37,868 nt of DNA from Desulfovibrio sp. DV (GTDB lineage Bacteria; Desulfobacterota; Desulfovibrionia; Desulfovibrionales; Desulfovibrionaceae), in assembly GCF_001936595.1 (NCBI RefSeq), contig NZ_MLBG01000033.1:1-37868 (forward strand), written 5' to 3'. Below the pieces are notes generated by a model that was not told the DNA's origin, ran no database searches, and saw only the letters and a program-made list of their open reading frames with translations. The position numbers and the translations under genes were made by a program. Positions 102 through 7,554 of this stretch are shown here, one piece after another (the first letter of the stretch is position 1; each line of letters opens with the position of its first letter).

Positions 102-1442
102 CTAATCTTCGACTTCTGCATTCGCTTGGCGAATGGCTTCCCATTTTTCCCAAAAGGTCGGGAACGATTTGGCGACGCAGGCCGGGTTATCCAGGACCAC
201 GTCGATGCCGGCCAGTTCGAACAGGGCGGCGGACATGGCCAGGCGGTGGTCGTCGAAGGCGGAGAATTCCACGCGCTGGTCGGTGCGAAGCGGCCGGGGC
301 CGGATGCGCATCCCGTCGGCCAGGGTGGTGACGACCGCGCCGGCCCGGGTGCAGTTTTCGGCCACGGCCTCGATGCGATCTGATTCCTTGAGGCGCAGGT
401 GGGCCACGTTTCGGATGACGGTTTCGCCTGAGGCGAAGCAGGCGACGGCGGCCACGGTGGGCACGAGGTCCGGGCAGCGGCCCATGTCCAGTTCCTGGCC
501 GGTCAGATCGCTCGGGTGGACGGTGAGGCCGGCCTCGGAAGCTTCGATGCGCGCGCCCATCTGGGCCAGGATGTCGCGGATGGCCCGGTCGCCTTGCAGC
601 GAATCCAGGCGCAGGCCGGCCACGGTGACCGGGGCGGAGCCGATGGCCCCGGCGGCCAGGAAATACGACGCGCTCGACCAGTCGGCTTCCACGGCATAGG
701 TGCGCGGCTGGTAGCGGGCGGGCTGCATGACGAAGCGGATCTGGCCGGGCACGACGTCGGTGAGGGTGCGCCAGTCCGTGGCGGCCCAGCCGTCGGCGGT
801 GCGGGTTTCCACGGCAAAGGGCACGGAAAAATCGTCAAGCGTCGAGAGGGTGATGGCGACGTAGGGCCAGGACACGGTTTTGGTGCCGGAAATTTCAATG
901 GTCAGCGGTGCAGCGGCCAGCGGTGCGGCCAGGAGCAGGCCGGAGAGGTATTGGGAGCTGTCTTCCAGGCTGATGTGGGTGGTGCCGCCGGTGAGGCCCC
1001 GTCCGACGAGCATCATGGGCGGGCAGCCGGATTTGGCCAGGTACAGGGCTTCCAGGCCCTGGGGGAGCAGGGCGTTTATGAGTTCGCCGATGGGCCGGTC
1101 GTGCATCCGGCCGTGGCCGCGCATTTCAAACAGGCCCTTGCCGGCGGCGGCGACGGCCGTCAGCAGGCGGCAGGTGGTGCCGGATTCGCCGACGTCGAGG
1201 ATGACGGCGTCATCGGTTTCGGGATCGCCGCCCTGGGGATGGCCGGCAGTGCCGGAAACGATGATGGAGCCGTCGCTTTGGGGATGGATGTCCGCGCCCA
1301 TGGCGGCCATGCACTCCCGGGTGCGGTGGATGTCCTGGCTGTCGAGCAGGCCGGTGACGCGGCTGGTGCCGGCGGCCAGGGCGGCAGCGATGACGGCCCG
1401 GTGGGACACGGATTTTGAAGGCGGCGCGGTAATGGTCGGCAT
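102..1442 (-). CDS. aroA: 3-phosphoshikimate 1-carboxyvinyltransferase (EPSP synthase)
   Basis: Cytoplasmic enzyme that joins shikimate-3-phosphate and phosphoenolpyruvate to give EPSP, the sixth step of the shikimate pathway. The 446-residue protein has the usual length. Family signatures visible are PPSKSVSHRA at the N-terminus (shikimate-phosphate binding, canonical PGSKSxSNRA), GESGTTCR near residue 95 (canonical GNAGTxxR, here Glu-Ser replacing Asn-Ala), RLKESDRIEA and FDDHRLAM near the C-terminus. The start at 1442 follows an AGGA ribosome site and begins MPTITAPPSK; a longer frame upstream looks like translated intergenic repeat. It is the last gene seen of the aromatic operon and lies about 226 bases beyond pheA, with two repeat elements in the gap. 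The altered GESGTT loop lies by the active site and may mark a divergent EPSP synthase class. The assignment itself is secure. Confidence 0.95.
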   Translation of the reverse strand: MPTITAPPSKSVSHRAVIAAALAAGTSRVTGLLDSQDIHRTRECMAAMGADIHPQSDGSIIVSGTAGHPQGGDPETDDAVILDVGESGTTCRLLTAVAAAGKGLFEMRGHGRMHDRPIGELINALLPQGLEALYLAKSGCPPMMLVGRGLTGGTTHISLEDSSQYLSGLLLAAPLAAAPLTIEISGTKTVSWPYVAITLSTLDDFSVPFAVETRTADGWAATDWRTLTDVVPGQIRFVMQPARYQPRTYAVEADWSSASYFLAAGAIGSAPVTVAGLRLDSLQGDRAIRDILAQMGARIEASEAGLTVHPSDLTGQELDMGRCPDLVPTVAAVACFASGETVIRNVAHLRLKESDRIEAVAENCTRAGAVVTTLADGMRIRPRPLRTDQRVEFSAFDDHRLAMSAALFELAGIDVVLDNPACVAKSFPTFWEKWEAIRQANAEVED

Positions 1443-1481
1443 ATGGTCCTCGTGGGTTAGGCGATACGGGTCAGGGGGAGA

Positions 1482-1521
1482 GCCTCCGGCGGCCAAAGGG
1501 GTCTACCCCTTTGGAAACCCT
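1482..1521. repeat. Intergenic hairpin element between pheA and aroA
   Basis: The element contains a perfect 9-bp stem, CCAAAGGGG and CCCCTTTGG around TCTA, at 1493-1514. It is preceded by GCCTCCGGCGG. The same 11 bases end the window at 37858-37868, where the element is cut off, so it is probably a dispersed repeat. No T-tract follows on either strand. It lies inside the transcribed spacer of the aromatic operon, about 40 bases before the aroA start. Confidence 0.5.
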
Positions 1522-1668: not shown

Positions 1669-2823
1669 TTACTCTTCCGTCTTCCCGGTCACGCCGTCGG
1701 CCAGATCCACCTGGGGGCCGGCCGGGTAGCAGCCGAGGATACGCAGACTGTGGGTGTTTTCGGTCAGCGTCGCCAGCAGTTTCTTGTATTCCTCGCGGGT
1801 CAGGTCGCATTGCAGGTCGGCGAAAAAGACGTACTGCCATTTTTCGCCCCGGATGGGCCGCGATTCGAGCTTGGTCAGGTTGATGCCTTCGCCGGCCAGA
1901 TGCGACAGCACCTGAAAGAGCGCGCCGGGCTTGTTGGGCACGGTGAAAAGGATCGAGGTCTTGTCGCGCGTCTGCTGCTTGGTGTCTTCGGGGCCGATGA
2001 TGAAAAAGCGCGTCCAGTTGTCGGGCAGGTCCTCGATGGGGCTGGCCAGGACATTGAGGTTGTGCATGGCGGCCAGGCGCAGGTGGCCGATGGAAGCGGC
2101 GTTGGGTTCGGCGGCCAGCCGGGTTGCGGCCGCGGCCGTGGAGTCGGTCGGGATGATCTTCGCCTTGGGCAGATGGGTCTTGAGCCAGGCGGCGCACTGG
2201 GCCAGGGGCTGGGGGTGCGAGTAGACGGTGTCGATAGTCTCGATGCTCGTGGCCGTGGAGAGCAGGGCGTGGCTCACGCGGCAGGTGATTTCGGCCTGGA
2301 TAAATACGTTGTAGCGCTGGAAGTTGTCCAGGCTCTGGCCGATGGTGCCTTGCAGCGAATTTTCCAGGGGCACGACGCCAAGGTCGGCCTGCTTGCCGGC
2401 CACGGCGGCAAACACGTCGCCGATGGTGGTCTGGGGCAGGAAATCCGGGGAATGGCCCAGGGCGGCCATGGCGGCGAAGTGGGAGAACGTGCCTTCGGGG
2501 CCGAGATAGCCCACCCGTTCGGGGCGCTGGAGCCGGCGGGAGGAGGATAAAATCTCGCGGTAGATGCTCAGCAGATGGCCGGCGGGCAGGGGCCCGGGGT
2601 TGGCTCCGACGAGGCGGGCCAGGACTTCCTGTTCGCGGAAGGGTTTGAAGATGGCGCTGTCGCAGCCGTCCTTGCGCCGCCCCACCTCCAGGCTCAGGGC
2701 GGCGCGTTTGTTGAGCAAGGCCAGGATGTCGTTGTCCAGGGAGTCGATGCCGTGGCGGATTTCCAGCAGGGCTTCTTCCAGGGAACCCGGGGGCGCGATG
2801 GTGTCGGGGCTGTCCGGGTTCAT
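1669..2823 (-). CDS. pheA: Bifunctional chorismate mutase / prephenate dehydratase
   Basis: It converts chorismate to prephenate and then to phenylpyruvate, the committed branch to phenylalanine. The 384-residue protein shows three parts. An AroQ-type chorismate mutase lies at about residues 12-100 (IDSLDNDILALLNKRAALSL). The prephenate dehydratase lies at about 105-285 (starts RVGYLGPEGTFSHFAA). A C-terminal ACT domain lies at about 290-365, with GALF and ESRP, the motif pair that binds phenylalanine in this family. Feedback inhibition by phenylalanine is therefore likely. The start at 2823 follows AAGGA and begins MNPDSP. It is one base from the end of the upstream DHQ synthase gene, which suggests translational coupling. 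Confidence 0.95.
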   Translation of the reverse strand: MNPDSPDTIAPPGSLEEALLEIRHGIDSLDNDILALLNKRAALSLEVGRRKDGCDSAIFKPFREQEVLARLVGANPGPLPAGHLLSIYREILSSSRRLQRPERVGYLGPEGTFSHFAAMAALGHSPDFLPQTTIGDVFAAVAGKQADLGVVPLENSLQGTIGQSLDNFQRYNVFIQAEITCRVSHALLSTATSIETIDTVYSHPQPLAQCAAWLKTHLPKAKIIPTDSTAAAATRLAAEPNAASIGHLRLAAMHNLNVLASPIEDLPDNWTRFFIIGPEDTKQQTRDKTSILFTVPNKPGALFQVLSHLAGEGINLTKLESRPIRGEKWQYVFFADLQCDLTREEYKKLLATLTENTHSLRILGCYPAGPQVDLADGVTGKTEE

Positions 2824-2824
2824 A

Positions 2825-3799
2825 TCATCCTTCCTTGATGTCTTCGGCGATGCGCATGCCGAAGTGGCGGCCGGCCACGTCGGTGGCAACCAGCACCCGG
2901 TCGCCAACGGCCAGGGTCACGACACTGACGGGTTTGCCTTCGGGGGTGACCACGCGGATGGTCTCGGCGTTTTGCAGGAAGACCTTGCCTTCCTTGCCCG
3001 CGACCTCGGCGGTTATAAGCAGCATGGGCCGGATTTCGGTTTTGACCCGGCCGACCACGGCGGTCTTGGTGGCACCGGTGTGCGAGACGATGAGCACTTC
3101 CGAACCCGAGGCCAGTTCTTCCAGATAGCGGGTCTTGTCGCCGGGCATCTGGCAGTAGGCGTGGACCGCGCCGGCATTGATGCGAAAGGGCCGGGCCGCG
3201 ACGTAGGGGTTGGACTCGGTCTCGGCATTGACCAGGAAGGTGAAGGCCGAGGAATTGCCGACGAGCATCCCCTCGCCGGTCTTTAAGATGCTTGTCGTGT
3301 CCACGCAGACCCGGTGGCCAAGGCCTGCGTGTTCAATTTTGGTGATGGTGGCCGTGGCGAGGTCCATGGTGCCCTGGGAGAGTTTCAGTTCGTTGACGAT
3401 GGTTTTGAGGTCGCACACGGCTTCGGGGGTGATGAGCAGCTTGTCCGCCCCGCGCTCCAGGACCCCGGCGGCCAGCCGCGCCCGGTCCAGGCTTTCGCAC
3501 TCAAGCCCCAGGCCCTCGGTGCAGGCCAGGATGTTTTCCACCGGAATGATCTCCCAACCCTTGGCCAGGAAGGTCGGCCGACACGCGTTGAGCGATTCGA
3601 TGGCCGTTCCCTCGTCGTCCTTGCAGCAGATGGGGATCAGCTCGAACTCCTCGGGCGTCATCACCTTGGTGCGCCCCAGGGCCAGAATGCTGTCGGCATC
3701 GGCTGCCTCGGCCACGAAGCCGTCCACGCCGGATTCGAGGCCAAGGGTGACGATATTTTTGTCGAAGGGAACGACCTTGAGCCATATTTCCTTGGTCAT
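2825..3799 (-). CDS. aroB': 3-dehydroquinate synthase II (archaeal type)
   Basis: The family converts 2-amino-3,7-dideoxy-threo-hept-6-ulosonate to 3-dehydroquinate by NAD-dependent oxidative deamination and cyclisation. It replaces the classical AroB. The 324-residue protein starts MTKEIWLKVVPFDK and matches the archaeal-type enzyme in length and pattern, for example SGVDGFVAE near the N-terminus and KTAVVGRVKTEIRPMLLI in the last third. It has no similarity in pattern to the sugar-phosphate cyclase AroB. The GAAGGA ribosome site lies inside the end of the preceding ADH synthase gene, and the two genes are 3 bases apart. The neighbouring ADH synthase supplies its substrate, which strongly supports the function. 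Confidence 0.93.
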   Translation of the reverse strand: MTKEIWLKVVPFDKNIVTLGLESGVDGFVAEAADADSILALGRTKVMTPEEFELIPICCKDDEGTAIESLNACRPTFLAKGWEIIPVENILACTEGLGLECESLDRARLAAGVLERGADKLLITPEAVCDLKTIVNELKLSQGTMDLATATITKIEHAGLGHRVCVDTTSILKTGEGMLVGNSSAFTFLVNAETESNPYVAARPFRINAGAVHAYCQMPGDKTRYLEELASGSEVLIVSHTGATKTAVVGRVKTEIRPMLLITAEVAGKEGKVFLQNAETIRVVTPEGKPVSVVTLAVGDRVLVATDVAGRHFGMRIAEDIKEG

Positions 3800-3802
3800 G
3801 AC

Positions 3803-4600
3803 CTAATCCTTCAGAAGTTCGAGGGCCTGATCCACTTCCCAATCGAGGTGGACGATGCCGTGCAGGGCCTGGACCATGCGGGCCGGCTGGGCGTGCTGGA
3901 AGATGTTGCGGCCAATGGACAGACCCGAACCGCCGGCCTGGATGGAATCGTGGGCCATTTGCAGCAGATCGCGGTCGTTGTCCATTTTGGCGCCGCCGGC
4001 AATGACCACCGGGATGCAGCAGGCATCGGTCACCCGGGAGAAGGATTCGATGTCGCCGGTGTAGGGCACCTTGACCACATCGGCCCCGAGTTCCGTGCCG
4101 ACCCGGGCGCAGTGGGCCACCACTTCGGCGTCGTACTCGTTTTTGACCTTGGGGCCTCGGGCGTAGACCATGGCCAGGACCGGCATACCCCATTCGGCCG
4201 CCCGGGAAGTGGTTTCGCCGAGGTGGGCCAGCATGTCGCGCTCGGTCTCATCGCCGAGGTTGACGTGCAGCGACACGGCATCGGCTCCGAGCTTGATGGC
4301 GTCCTCGACGGTGCCGACCAGGGTCTTGGCGTTGGGGTAGGGCGAGAGGCTGGTGGAGGCGGACAGGTGGATGATGAGGCCCACGTCGCGGCCGCGGCCG
4401 CGATGGGAACAGCGGGGCAGGCCCTTGTGCATGAGCACGGCGTTGGCGCCGCCTTCGGCCACCTGGTTGACGGCGTCGCGCATGTCGATCAACCCGGATA
4501 TGGGGCCGACAGTCACGCCATGGTCCATGGGGACGATGATGGCGCGATGGGTGTTGCGATTGAAAATGCGTTCGAGGCGGACGGCTTTTCCAAGCAGCAT
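3803..4600 (-). CDS. aroA': 2-amino-3,7-dideoxy-D-threo-hept-6-ulosonate (ADH) synthase, class I aldolase family
   Basis: First enzyme of the alternative shikimate entry. It joins an aspartate-derived semialdehyde and a 6-deoxy-5-ketofructose phosphate through a Schiff base. The 265-residue protein belongs to the DhnA/FbaB class I aldolase family. [10 protein letters not shown] near residue 25 and [11 protein letters not shown] near residue 180 are the family signatures, and the lysine of KVPYTGD is the expected Schiff-base residue. The start at 4600 begins [13 protein letters not shown] after an AGGAG site. By itself it could be read as a fructose-bisphosphate aldolase. The adjacent DHQ synthase II and aromatic genes favour ADH synthase. 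It is the first enzyme gene of the operon, downstream of the leader at 4655-4799. Confidence 0.9.
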
Positions 4601-4654
4601 GGCGATCTCCTGTGGTTTGGCCCTCCCGGCTGCGGACGCCGGCGACATGATAAT

Positions 4655-4687
4655 AAAAAAGGGCCGCCGGCTTGATGCCCGCGGCCC
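4655..4687 (-). terminator. Attenuator terminator of the aromatic operon
   Basis: Read on the minus strand, GGGCCGC and GCGGCCC form a perfect 7-bp stem (4681-4687 with 4661-4667). Inside it a further GGC/GCC stem closes over ATCAA. Six T residues follow (4660-4655), then ATTA. It lies between the leader peptide stop and the ADH synthase start, inside the transcribed leader, so it would stop transcription before the structural genes. Its 5' arm is also used by the alternative pairing at 4677-4742. Confidence 0.85.
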
Positions 4688-4742
4688 TGGAGTGGCTCGT
4701 TGCGGTTGACTAGTTCGACCGCACCCCCCCCAGACCACGGGC
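4677..4742 (-). promoter_or_regulatory. Predicted antiterminator pairing
   Basis: On the minus strand, 4742-4730 reads GCCCGTGGTCTGG and 4690-4677 reads CCAGGGCCGCGGGC. They pair over 13 positions, including two G-U wobbles and one bulged base. The downstream arm contains the whole 5' arm of the terminator, so the two structures exclude each other. The upstream arm lies in the leader codons directly after the aromatic run. A ribosome paused early in that run leaves the arm free, and one that moves past covers it. A small hairpin TGCGGT/ACCGCA flanks the leader stop codon. The fold was worked out by eye; no energies were calculated. Confidence 0.7.
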
Positions 4743-4799
4743 GTGGCTAAACCAGAACCAAAAGTAGAACCCGGAGGTCAGATTACGGAGGGTTTGCAT
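4710..4799 (-). CDS. Aromatic leader peptide (29 residues)
   Basis: This short frame, not previously called, starts ATG at 4799 and stops TAG at 4710. It starts [10 protein letters not shown]. Residues 11-17 are Phe-Tyr-Phe-Trp-Phe-Trp-Phe, so seven consecutive codons call for all three aromatic amino acids. Such runs are the hallmark of attenuator leader peptides, for example those of trp and phe operons. It lies directly upstream of a terminator and of the aromatic operon on the same strand. The weak point is translation initiation: no good ribosome site precedes the ATG. A TTG two codons earlier, or leaderless translation, are alternatives. The peptide itself probably has no function beyond ribosome positioning. 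Confidence 0.85.
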
Positions 4800-4807
4800 G
4801 GGCAATA

Positions 4808-4837
4808 CGGGTACTTGTCCGCGTCCTGTCCTGTCAA
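4808..4837 (-). promoter_or_regulatory. Weak candidate promoter for the aromatic operon
   Basis: TTGACA at 4837-4832 is a perfect -35 hexamer overlapping the metE stop codon. At 18 bases spacing the -10 would be TACCCG, which is poor. If used, transcription would start within a few bases of the leader ATG, giving an almost leaderless message. The operon may instead be read through from metE or use a promoter inside the metE end. Confidence 0.3.
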
Positions 4838-7155
4838 GCGGTTTTTTTGCATCCGGTTTGGGCCGGCAATCCGGCCCGCACCTGCCGGGCCGCTTCGACC
4901 AGATTGGCCAGGGCGGCGGTCACCTCGTCCCAGGTGCGGGTTTTGAGCCCGCAGTCCGGGTTGGCCCACAGGCGCGTCGGGTCGATGACGGCAGCGGCCC
5001 GCGTCAGCAGGTCGGCCATCTCGGCCACCGAGGGCACGCGCGGGCTGTGGATGTCATAGAGCCCCGGACCGATTTCGTTGGGATAGCCGTCCCGGGCAAA
5101 GGCGGTAAGCGGCTCCATGCGGCTGCGGCTGGCCTCGATGCTCAAGACGTCGGCGTCCATGGCGGCAATGGCCGGGACGATGTCGCCGAAATCGGCATAG
5201 CACATGTGGGTATGGATTTGGGTTTCGGCCTTGGCCACGGCGGCGCTTAGGCGAAAATCATCCACGGCCAGGGCCAGGGCGGCCTCCCAGTCGCGCCGGC
5301 GAAGCGGCAGCCCCTCGCGCAGGCCCGGTTCGTCGATCTGGATGGCCCGGATGCCGGCGGCTTCGAGGTCGGCCACCTCGTCGCGGATGGCCAGGGCGAT
5401 CTGGCGGCGGGTCACTTCCCGCGGCTGGTCGTCGCGCACAAAGCTCCAGGCCAGGATGGTGGACGGGCCGGTCAGCATCCCCTTGACCGGTTTGGGCGTG
5501 AGTGACTGGGCGTAAACGGCCAGGGCAACGGTCATGGGGCCGGGGCGGGACACGTCGCCGTAAATCACCGGCGGCTTGACGCAGCGCGTGCCGTAGCTTT
5601 GCACCCAGCCGTTTCGGGTGAAGCAGAATCCGTCGAGCATCTCCCCGAAAAACTCCACCATGTCGTTGCGTTCCGGTTCGCCGTGGACCAGCACGTCAAG
5701 CCCGAGCGCCTCCTGCCGGGCGATGGCGTCGGCCACGCCGGCCTTTACAAAAGCGTCGTAGGCTCTGGCGTCGAGTTGCCCCTGGCGAAAGCGGCGTCTG
5801 GTCTGGCGGATTTCCGGGGTCTGGGGGAAGGAGCCGATGGTGGTGGTCGGCAGCAGGGGCAGACCCAAAGCGGCCCGCTGTTGTCCGGCCCGGACGGCAT
5901 AGGGGGCCGGACGGTGGAACATGTCCACGGTGATGTCGGCCACGCGGCTGCGCACGGCCGGGTTGGCCAGCCGGGGGCTTTTGCGGCGCGACTCCCAGGC
6001 GGCCCGGTTGGCGGCCAGGGCCTCGGCCACGTCCGGACGGTCAGCGCCGCCCGGGGCGGCGGCGTCGGCCAACAGGCGCACCTCGCGGCATTTCTGCACG
6101 GCAACGGCCATCCACGACTTGATTTCCGGGTCAAGTTCGGTCTCGGCGTCGAGATTGACCGGACAGTGGAGCAGGGAGCACGACGGGGCGAGCATGAGCC
6201 GGTCGGCCCCGAGATGGCTGGCGGCCAGCCCGATGCGGGCCAGGGCGGCGGCAGCGTCCACCCGCCAGATGTTGCGGCCGTCGACCAGCCCCAGGGACAG
6301 GGCGGTGTCCGGGGCCAGGGACTTGGCCACCAGGGCAAGCTGGGTGGGGTCGCGCACCAGATCGACATGCAGGGCGGCCAGGGGCAGGTCCCGGGTAAAG
6401 GCCAGATTGTGGGCGATGCTGCCAAAGGGCGCGGCCAGCATCAGTCTGGCCGGGCCGGCCGCCTCGGCCAGGGCGGCATAGGTCCGGCGGAAGGGGGCGA
6501 GCAGATCGGCCGGCAGATCCTGGCACAGGACCGGCTCGTCGAGTTCGATCCAGGGACAGGTTTCGGCCAGCCGGGCCAGCAGGTCGCAGTAGGCCGGCAG
6601 GAGCCGGGGCAGCAGGGTCAGCCGGTCAAAGGGTTCGCCGGCGCAGGAGCCAAGCAGCAGGAAGGTGGCGGGACCTGGCAGCACGGCCTTGGCCGCAAAG
6701 CCGGCCGTGCGGGCCTCGGCCGCCTGCCGGAGGATGGCGTCGCCGGCCAGGGCAAAGGTCTGGTCGGGCTCAAATTCCGGGACGAGGTAGTGGTAGTTGG
6801 TGTCAAACCACTTGGTCATCTCAAGGGCCGTGACGTCGCCCCGGGCGTCCTGGCCGCCCCGGGCCATGCGGCAGTAACGATCGAGGTCCACCGGCCCGCC
6901 GGTCTGGCCGTAGCGCCGGGGCACCACGCCAAAGAGCACGGCGGCGTCGAGCATGTGGTCGTAGAGCGAGAAATCGCCCACCGGCACGAGGTCGATGCCT
7001 GCGTCGCGCTGGACGGCCCAGTGGGCAAGGCGCAGGGCTTGGGCGGTGCGGTGGAGCTCGCCTGGGGAGACGCTGCCGGCAAAAAAGCCTTCCAGCGCGG
7101 TCTTGAGTTCGCGGGCCGGCCCCATGCGGGGAAAGCCCAGGGAATGGGTAAGCAT
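4834..7155 (-). CDS. metE: Cobalamin-independent methionine synthase
   Basis: It transfers a methyl group from 5-methyltetrahydropteroyl-polyglutamate to homocysteine. The 773-residue length is normal for MetE. The N-terminal half is the duplicated barrel, starting MLTHSLGFPRMGPARELK. The C-terminal catalytic barrel has TTTIGSFPQT and LVHGEPERNDMVEFFGEML. The zinc ligands are visible in order as HTHMC (about residue 650), the glutamate of SIEAS about 22 residues on, and the cysteine of NPDCGLKTR near residue 734. The start at 7155 is preceded by a strong AGGAGG. A cobalamin riboswitch and terminator lie upstream, so expression should fall when B12 is plentiful and a B12-dependent MetH can take over. 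No separate terminator is seen after the gene; the aromatic attenuator follows it directly. Confidence 0.97.
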   Translation of the reverse strand: MLTHSLGFPRMGPARELKTALEGFFAGSVSPGELHRTAQALRLAHWAVQRDAGIDLVPVGDFSLYDHMLDAAVLFGVVPRRYGQTGGPVDLDRYCRMARGGQDARGDVTALEMTKWFDTNYHYLVPEFEPDQTFALAGDAILRQAAEARTAGFAAKAVLPGPATFLLLGSCAGEPFDRLTLLPRLLPAYCDLLARLAETCPWIELDEPVLCQDLPADLLAPFRRTYAALAEAAGPARLMLAAPFGSIAHNLAFTRDLPLAALHVDLVRDPTQLALVAKSLAPDTALSLGLVDGRNIWRVDAAAALARIGLAASHLGADRLMLAPSCSLLHCPVNLDAETELDPEIKSWMAVAVQKCREVRLLADAAAPGGADRPDVAEALAANRAAWESRRKSPRLANPAVRSRVADITVDMFHRPAPYAVRAGQQRAALGLPLLPTTTIGSFPQTPEIRQTRRRFRQGQLDARAYDAFVKAGVADAIARQEALGLDVLVHGEPERNDMVEFFGEMLDGFCFTRNGWVQSYGTRCVKPPVIYGDVSRPGPMTVALAVYAQSLTPKPVKGMLTGPSTILAWSFVRDDQPREVTRRQIALAIRDEVADLEAAGIRAIQIDEPGLREGLPLRRRDWEAALALAVDDFRLSAAVAKAETQIHTHMCYADFGDIVPAIAAMDADVLSIEASRSRMEPLTAFARDGYPNEIGPGLYDIHSPRVPSVAEMADLLTRAAAVIDPTRLWANPDCGLKTRTWDEVTAALANLVEAARQVRAGLPAQTGCKKTA

Positions 7156-7264: not shown

Positions 7265-7349
7265 CGCGGGTGCAGCACGGAAGGACGCGCCAAAGCGGTT
7301 CCCGTCGCTGGTACTCCGGCCCATGTCGCGAGGCCCGAATGCCGACCGT

Positions 7350-7505
7350 TTTCGAGGCGTCTTCTGGCTTACGGGGCTGGTCGTTAGACCGTGGCCTGTG
7401 GCCGCGTCCTTCCCGGGAAACCCCAGTGGACGATGGCCGGCTGACCCCGAATACAGCAGCGCGACTGCGACGGATTCCCACCGTCTTCCGTTTCTCGAAA
7501 GGTCC
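7350..7505 (-). promoter_or_regulatory. Cobalamin (adenosylcobalamin-type) riboswitch
   Basis: Conserved blocks of the cobalamin aptamer appear in the expected order on the minus strand. They are GGTGGGAATCCGTCGCAGTC (near 7480-7460), CCACTG (7429-7424), GGGAAGG (7414-7408) and the B12 box AGCCAGAAGACGCC (7369-7356). The outer boundaries are approximate. A terminator and metE follow, which is the classic arrangement in which bound cobalamin shuts off B12-independent methionine synthase. Confidence 0.93.
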
Positions 7506-7525
7506 TTGAGTCAAGTAGCCGGAAA

Positions 7526-7554
7526 AATATAGTCGGGGAGGTTGTCTGCGTCAA
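7526..7554 (-). promoter_or_regulatory. Sigma70-type promoter of metE
   Basis: TTGACG (7554-7549) and TATATT (7531-7526) are separated by exactly 17 bases on the minus strand. Transcription would start near 7519, just upstream of the aptamer. Confidence 0.75.

Follow-up and report, generated by a model that had tools for sequence, protein, structure and literature searches.

The question raised by this locus is whether a short minus-strand frame with seven consecutive aromatic codons, lying ahead of the archaeal-type genes for aromatic amino acid synthesis in Desulfovibrio sp. DV, is the leader peptide of an attenuator that would read the supply of Phe, Tyr and Trp. The stretch of DNA analysed, here called the window (37,868 nucleotides), is an entire contig and ends just beyond aroA. 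An earlier note, made from the letters of the window, had taken the frame for a leader peptide; this interpretation, the terminator included, is supported here by the conservation of the frame in relatives and by the match between leader codons and gene content. The features on which the argument rests, in the window and at related loci, are collected in Table 1.

Table 1. Features of the window and of related loci (positions refer to the window unless a locus is named)
Feature	Position	Strand	Basis or remark
-35 element TTGACA	4832..4837	(-)	read from sequence
Probable -10 element TACCCG	4808..4813	(-)	weak match, 18-nt spacer; position inferred from T-A peak in aligned leaders
Predicted aromatic-rich leader peptide ORF	4710..4799	(-)	translation of window; 29 residues
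Control codons TTC TAC TTT TGG TTC TGG TTT (F Y F W F W F)	4749..4769	(-)	read from sequence
Region 1, possible protector	4769..4797	(-)	pairs with region 2 and the following G-run; duplex -29.5 kcal/mol
Region 2, GCCCGTGGTC, antiterminator 5' arm	4733..4742	(-)	codes ARG of SHARG; 2:3 duplex -26.5 kcal/mol
Region 3, GGCCGCGGGC, arm common to antiterminator (with region 2) and terminator (with region 4)	4677..4686	(-)	pairing, covariation
Intrinsic terminator, stem 4688-4660 (AGGGCCGC-G-GGC / GCC-G-GCGGCCCT), U-tract 4660-4655	4655..4688	(-)	MFE -24.7 kcal/mol
Shine-Dalgarno AGGAGA of ADH synthase	4611-4606	(-)	read from sequence
ADH synthase (2-amino-3,7-dideoxy-D-threo-hept-6-ulosonate synthase, aroA'), first controlled gene	3803..4600	(-)	NCBIfam TIGR01949, 401.9 bits (cut-off 299.45)
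3-Dehydroquinate synthase II (DHQ synthase II, aroB')	2825..3799	(-)	NCBIfam NF002628, 565.3 bits (cut-off 508)
Chorismate mutase/prephenate dehydratase, pheA	1669..2823	(-)	NF008865, 252.5 bits (cut-off 219); start set at ATG of MNPDSP
5-Enolpyruvylshikimate-3-phosphate synthase, aroA	102..1442	(-)	TIGR01356, 371.9 bits (cut-off 287.25); start set at ATG of MPTITAPP
Stand-alone Trp leaders before trpE	L218, L220, L222, L223		GWWWR, or SWWRR in L223; with terminators
Two leader-terminator units in tandem	L318:1421-1830
WWW leader MNTRLWWWRASCGRVYGMA and terminator of the same type	L310, before gene at 454-1488	(-)	G003; TRAP-type solute-binding protein DctP, 154 bits
WSW leader-like ORF and terminator	L313:1443-1536		before TrpB-like gene (Pfam PALP), G002; model search

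The leader frame and its transcription unit

Translation of 4799-4710 confirmed the 29-residue frame that had been claimed, with F-Y-F-W-F-W-F at residues 11-17. That such a run was very unlikely to arise by chance also held: when the 450 nt that precede the ADH-synthase gene were shuffled 4000 times with dinucleotides preserved, six aromatics within eight codons never occurred and five occurred three times, against seven in the real frame. The same was seen in a named set of related loci (80 upstream regions retrieved and 79 used, L061 being too short), where at least five aromatics in eight codons were present on the sense strand in 66 of the 79, as compared with 53 of 1580 shuffled upstream regions and 6 of 79 opposite strands.

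The aromatic codons also carry the mark of coding selection. Over 128 equal-length within-genus leader pairs, which are non-independent, and with multiply changed codons (58 and 205) excluded, pS was 0.240 and pN 0.019 in aromatic codons, as opposed to 0.095 and 0.051 in the non-aromatic ones. The single changes in aromatic codons comprised 78 synonymous and 55 non-synonymous, and 20 of the latter were swaps among F, Y and W. On this comparison, the aromatic codons are under purifying selection and change mainly synonymously.

In Solidesulfovibrio aerotolerans (L001), the operon goes on with tyrA (prephenate dehydrogenase) and trpE (anthranilate synthase I). The window's genome has its trpE on another contig, about 1 kb short of the contig end, as expected of an operon split by the assembly. 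On the upstream side, the leader sits between metE (stop codon 4836-4834) and ADH synthase. The earlier note had used metE as a landmark for this spacer, a choice that did not hold: inspection of 1.5 kb upstream found metE in only three of eight genomes of the genus, and metE is therefore no part of the system. This B12-independent methionine synthase gene is itself preceded by a cobalamin riboswitch (7339-7530, minus strand, 72.2 bits), which is ordinary.

An exact TTGACA was found 35-40 nt 5' of the leader ATG in 95 of the 128 leaders with enough sequence; in the window this box overlaps the metE stop codon TGA. When the 104 leaders that could be aligned on TTGACA were superimposed, a T-A peak appeared 24-25 nt from its start. 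The corresponding -10 element of the window is poor, which counts against the attenuator reading. As it is placed only 8 nt from the leader AUG, the transcript would start at or beside that codon. Shine-Dalgarno-like motifs were seen at 18 of 128 leader AUGs versus 117 of 128 ADH-synthase AUGs. From this rarity and from the spacing of TTGACA and the T-A peak, we infer that leader mRNAs probably start at or beside the leader AUG, usually without a Shine-Dalgarno sequence. A consensus scan of 4400-5100 returned no promoters and no terminators; it missed the terminator probably because a mismatch interrupts the stem.

Alternative helices and a proposed attenuation mechanism

The terminator, a stem with a U-tract behind it, stands just past the leader frame, as had been claimed; 21 nt separate it from the stop codon. 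In the named set, the distance from the last aromatic codon to region 2 is 0-16 nt, mostly 4-11 nt. The pairing of region 2 with region 3 over 131 leaders had a mean energy of -23.6 kcal/mol against -15.4 in shuffled sequences, with 93 of the 131 better than all 30 shuffles. In an alignment of 88 leaders built without reference to structure, 97.3% of cells in the 2:3 helix and 98.7% in the terminator helix were paired, percentages inflated by the pre-selection of leaders on pairing energy, which cannot create the two-sided changes seen at 5 of 10 and 7 of 10 pairs, respectively. Slid controls gave 34-44% paired cells for the 2:3 helix and 25-66% over both helices. A region 3 base opposite a terminator mismatch in 65 of the 88 rows nevertheless covaries with region 2, so that the 2:3 helix must be selected in its own right. 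At alignment columns 10-91 of this helix the pairs were UA (42), CG (31), UG (10), AU (3), GC (1) and other (1). Comparative analysis thus indicates that the predicted antiterminator and terminator are mutually exclusive and both covarying, with the 5' terminator arm common to both.

Regions 1 and 2 could form a further helix. Its energy over the 131 leaders was -21.4 versus -17.1 in shuffled sequences, and 79 of the 131 fell in the best tenth. In the window, the modelled probability of this pairing was near 0 at equilibrium once region 3 was present, and any protector role of the 1:2 helix is putative.

We believe that these elements are best explained by a ribosome-mediated transcription attenuator that would sense Phe, Tyr and Trp together through a predicted start, translation, stalling and kinetic switch, and we put the probability of this reading at about 0.9. 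The leader mRNA would start at or beside the leader AUG, with a ribosome trailing the RNA polymerase. On scarcity of Phe, Tyr or Trp, the ribosome would slow on the FYFWFWF codons and leave region 2 free to pair with region 3 before region 4 emerges, and the polymerase would read through into the genes for ADH synthase, DHQ synthase II, pheA, aroA, tyrA and trpE. With all three amino acids plentiful, the ribosome would advance over region 2, regions 3 and 4 would pair and transcription would stop. The same scheme would use F, Y and W codons before the full operon and F only, Y only or F plus Y before lone ADH-synthase paralogs, and would dispense with W in the operon leaders of genomes without a clear trpE.

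The RNA as it would stand before the synthesis of region 4 was modelled with a masking ribosome (assumed footprint 14 nt back and 17 forward). In the window, the probability of the 2:3 helix was 0.91 with A-site codons 11-15, 0.38 and 0.36 with codons 16 and 17, and 0.00 with codons 19-26; it was likewise 0.91 without a ribosome, at codons 1-10 or at the stop codon. Among the 131 leaders, this probability exceeded 0.5 in 127, 112 and 38 for a ribosome at the first, middle and last control codon, respectively, in 54 for one at the stop codon and in 107 without a ribosome. A stalled ribosome was ahead by more than 0.2 in 79 of the 131 when compared with the stop-codon state and in 25 when compared with the no-ribosome state. 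Since the no-ribosome and stop-codon states also permit the 2:3 helix, the high-amino-acid state would hinge on a brief ribosome position or on the 1:2 pairing. Full-length equilibrium folding with the masked ribosome showed no switch: the terminator formed in nearly every state, the stalled one included. This contradicts a purely thermodynamic switch and, because equilibrium favours the terminator once region 4 is present, the proposed switch would have to be kinetic. An antiterminator that appeared on folding a 196-nt stretch extending past the terminator was discounted as evidence, because the sequence past the U-tract pairs with region 4.

Conservation and codon content of the leaders

A search of relatives had been suggested as a check of the frame. 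Every one of the 101 genomes surveyed in the order has a short F/Y/W-rich frame at the same place, and such frames were found in 13 further families of the phylum. ADH synthase is present in 119 of 120 genomes of the order, and the survey took 101 of these 119, the other 18 (14 of genus g3) being left out. Using as criteria an aromatic ORF, a terminator and 2:3 pairing, the script called 132 leaders; one of them (L212) was dropped before counting as a chance ORF. Leaders were thus counted for 131 of the 149 ADH-synthase copies read, with none of the 101 genomes, from 30 genera, left without one.

The 18 copies with no counted leader (17 uncalled plus L212) lie outside an operon in 16 cases. 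Two are second genes within an operon, 14 (L212 among them) have no leader of any kind, and L145 and L146 show clear F-run ORFs for which a terminator was not called. No leader was called for the lone ADH synthases L159, L171, L174, L177, L179 and L182 of genus g23 and L148, L158 and L165 of genus g2; the uncalled lone copies of these genera are possibly under a different control.

In a phylum-wide draw, 43 of 148 genomes (six of them from this order) had ADH synthase. Scored on ORF and terminator only, 23 of 38 loci from other families, 13 families in all, had an ORF with an aromatic run and a terminator behind it (e.g. MRKTLTATKNYYFYFWYYWFGRGLPTVS and MHRQLRGFYFSYYYFWGYRCASTFKSP). In named Desulfobacterales, where ADH synthase is followed by pheA, the leaders contain mainly F and Y, some with one W near or after region 2.

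The codon content of the leaders was compared with the genes behind them, counting W only in codons 5' of region 2. Operon leaders carried F, Y and W in 96 of 100 cases and were without W in the other four, while W was found in none of 30 leaders of lone ADH synthases from nine genera, 21 of which had F plus Y, six F only and three Y only. L240, a truncated contig, was not counted among these lone copies. If W is counted anywhere in the peptide, three lone-copy leaders are positive, all three with the W located past region 2. In each of the 30 genomes (nine genera) with both kinds of leader, the operon leader had W and the lone leader did not. The Fisher values (2e-25 and 4e-6) take no account of ancestry; the counts by genus are more reliable. 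The window's own genome is one of those with both kinds: it holds a second ADH synthase (C22), preceded by MQTRQTATRIAFFGPYYYYGLRARGLAGGGAR. Phenylalanine-dominated leaders occur at the lone ADH synthases L128, L136, L138, L139, L141 (RFFFFFGFFFF), L145, L146 and L164.

The four operon leaders without W (G035, G044, G086 and G101) come from four of the seven genomes that had no trpE match at E<=1e-70. The remaining three are G084, with no ADH-synthase match, and G019 and G041, with W in their leaders and operon contigs that stop short of where trpE would be. G044 has a weak partial trpE-family match (134.7 bits). Since trpB is retained above the cut-off in G035, G044 and G101, what is missing from them is the step from chorismate and not the whole of Trp synthesis; these three may, to judge by gene content, make Trp from indole. 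That codons for all three amino acids make sense in a leader before genes that serve all three end products, as had been suggested, is supported by the match between leader codons and gene content. As far as such comparisons go, evolution has fitted the codons of each leader to the role of the gene copy behind it.

Other explanations of the frame have to be weighed against these results. It could encode a small protein acting in trans, with the codon run as a structural trait of the peptide. A trans-acting attenuator leader peptide, peTrpL, is on record in the part of the Sinorhizobium literature considered here (PMC7298713), and the C-terminal residues of the present peptide (SHARG, RACGLEG) are conserved too. 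However, those residues overlie RNA region 2, and F, Y and W interchange between leaders with aromaticity kept and composition tracking gene content; we consider a role in trans improbable. Somewhat less probable still is a terminator/antiterminator switch made of RNA alone (a riboswitch, a protein-binding or a T-box-like element) with the ORF as a passenger. It would account for the conservation of both alternative helices, but it leaves the match between W and trpE unexplained, as well as the strong synonymous bias of the aromatic codons. Furthermore, the leader matched no Rfam family at gathering score, including the Trp, Phe and other amino-acid leader families; a permissive Rfam scan of it gave only ncS01, SNORA76 and PK-BYV (E 1.5-5.1), and the T-box and riboswitch models matched the window only at the cobalamin riboswitch.

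We give hardly any credit to a chance aromatic run in a leader with another use, for instance to re-initiate translation at the first gene. Short leader ORFs can indeed boost downstream translation, but 109 nt and the terminator separate the leader stop from the ADH-synthase AUG, and chance is contradicted both by the shuffles described above and by conservation. An attenuator reading all three amino acids thus remains our preferred explanation.

Relation to known attenuators and further Trp leaders

The enteric trp, phe and his operons are controlled by attenuators, as exemplified by trpL, pheL and pheM. The present element resembles these in its run of end-product codons in a leader ORF, its alternative antiterminator and terminator and its intrinsic terminator before the first gene. 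It differs in reading three amino acids in one run, in controlling the archaeal-type entry through ADH synthase and DHQ synthase II together with a fused Phe, Tyr and Trp operon, in the usual lack of a Shine-Dalgarno sequence and in having no Rfam match.

Comparable cases outside the enterics read Trp. In Sinorhizobium meliloti, the trpL mRNA is described as beginning with the leader AUG (a leaderless leader), which the promoter spacing suggests for the present leaders too; trpL is a Trp-only leader before trpE(G), as opposed to the F, Y and W found here (PMC7298713). The actinobacterial trp attenuators likewise rest on comparative evidence for a leader peptide and alternative hairpins, but the account available to us gives Trp codons only, in contrast to the F/Y/W run, and reports that no such elements were found before phenylalanine or tyrosine operons (PMC1262725). 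According to the portion consulted of a survey of proteobacterial regulons, TrpR and TyrR are highly conserved in gammaproteobacteria and absent from other classes (PMC5343134).

The earlier note had held that, to its knowledge, a leader of this kind was not described, a statement that calls for some qualification. In Table 7 of Song et al. 2005 (PMC1173090), a putative attenuator taken from a prediction database is placed before the D. vulgaris supraoperon aroA'>aroB'>aroQ-pheA>aroF>tyrA>trp, that is, before the same supraoperon in a relative, and it is probably the same terminator element as here. The term 'leader peptide' occurs nowhere in the text of that paper and none is named there; unlike the present analysis, the tabulated entry comes with no peptide, codons or paralog comparison. 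A literature search, mostly without subscription papers, gave no description of a leader in which codons for Phe, Tyr and Trp occur together. The three-amino-acid form of classical ribosome-mediated attenuation is best read as new, and the element is unusual also in its breadth and in the match between codons and gene role.

A wider picture, towards which we lean with some reserve, is that of a leader-peptide attenuator family standing on the first archaeal-type enzyme in much of the Desulfobacterota. Its codon alphabet would be rewritten as gene copies change role, giving isoenzymes sensitive to Phe, to Tyr or to Phe, Tyr and Trp, with a leaderless leader; in many lineages, a Trp-run C-terminus of TyrA would serve as Trp leader before trpE, and stand-alone Trp leaders would occur where trpE has moved, even before a transporter gene. 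This would supply a rule by which aromatic synthesis is regulated over a large part of a phylum of sulfate reducers. It would also be a natural experiment in attenuator evolution, with the same RNA switch behind different sensing codons before paralogs of one genome, and without Trp codons where trpE was not found. As the codons differ by paralog and with the presence of trpE, the metabolic role of a gene copy could be predicted from its leader codons.

In the TyrA case, if true, an enzyme would have a sensor in its own final codons. Of 71 TyrA tails, six of them from named loci, 62 have WWW or WWWW shortly before the stop codon. Such tails were noted at L115-L239 and others, in many Desulfovibrionales. 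In most of those with trpE downstream, a terminator follows about 40-80 nt past the tyrA stop. In a set of 51 TyrA tails with WW and a strong terminator, the region after the last W (13-18 nt past it in 15 examples) pairs with the terminator arm at -17.5 versus -12.4 in shuffled sequences, and 19 of the 51 beat all 30 shuffles. Two of the tail Trp residues seem to belong to an ordinary TyrA tail (EAWW, KGWW). The run is no proof by itself, since WWW occurs also in genus g3, where no trpE follows, and in g10 and g18, where no terminator was detected. Solidesulfovibrio does not have this second stage. Taken together, the sequences suggest that the enzyme tail may serve as a Trp leader before trpE. 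In D. hydrothermalis (PMC4162548), the ten genes of the cluster that runs from the aldolase to trp are reported to change jointly, and three of the trp genes change in a separate comparison as well, a pattern that fits an operon under further control ahead of trpE.

Where trpE lies apart from the operon, it had its own Trp leader and terminator in four of the six genus-g3 genomes read, and in G003 two Trp leaders precede a separate trpE in tandem. A covariance-model search for the element in 13 genomes extended the range of genes concerned. The matches read at about 41 bits or more stood before ADH synthase, trpE, a TrpB-like gene or a solute-binding protein gene (L310). Of the eight matches at about 35 bits or less to which loci were assigned, the seven listed (L314, L315, L316, L317, L319, L320 and L321) were rejected because an aromatic leader is missing from the expected position. 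The predicted WWW leader at L310 perhaps belongs to a Trp-regulated uptake system.
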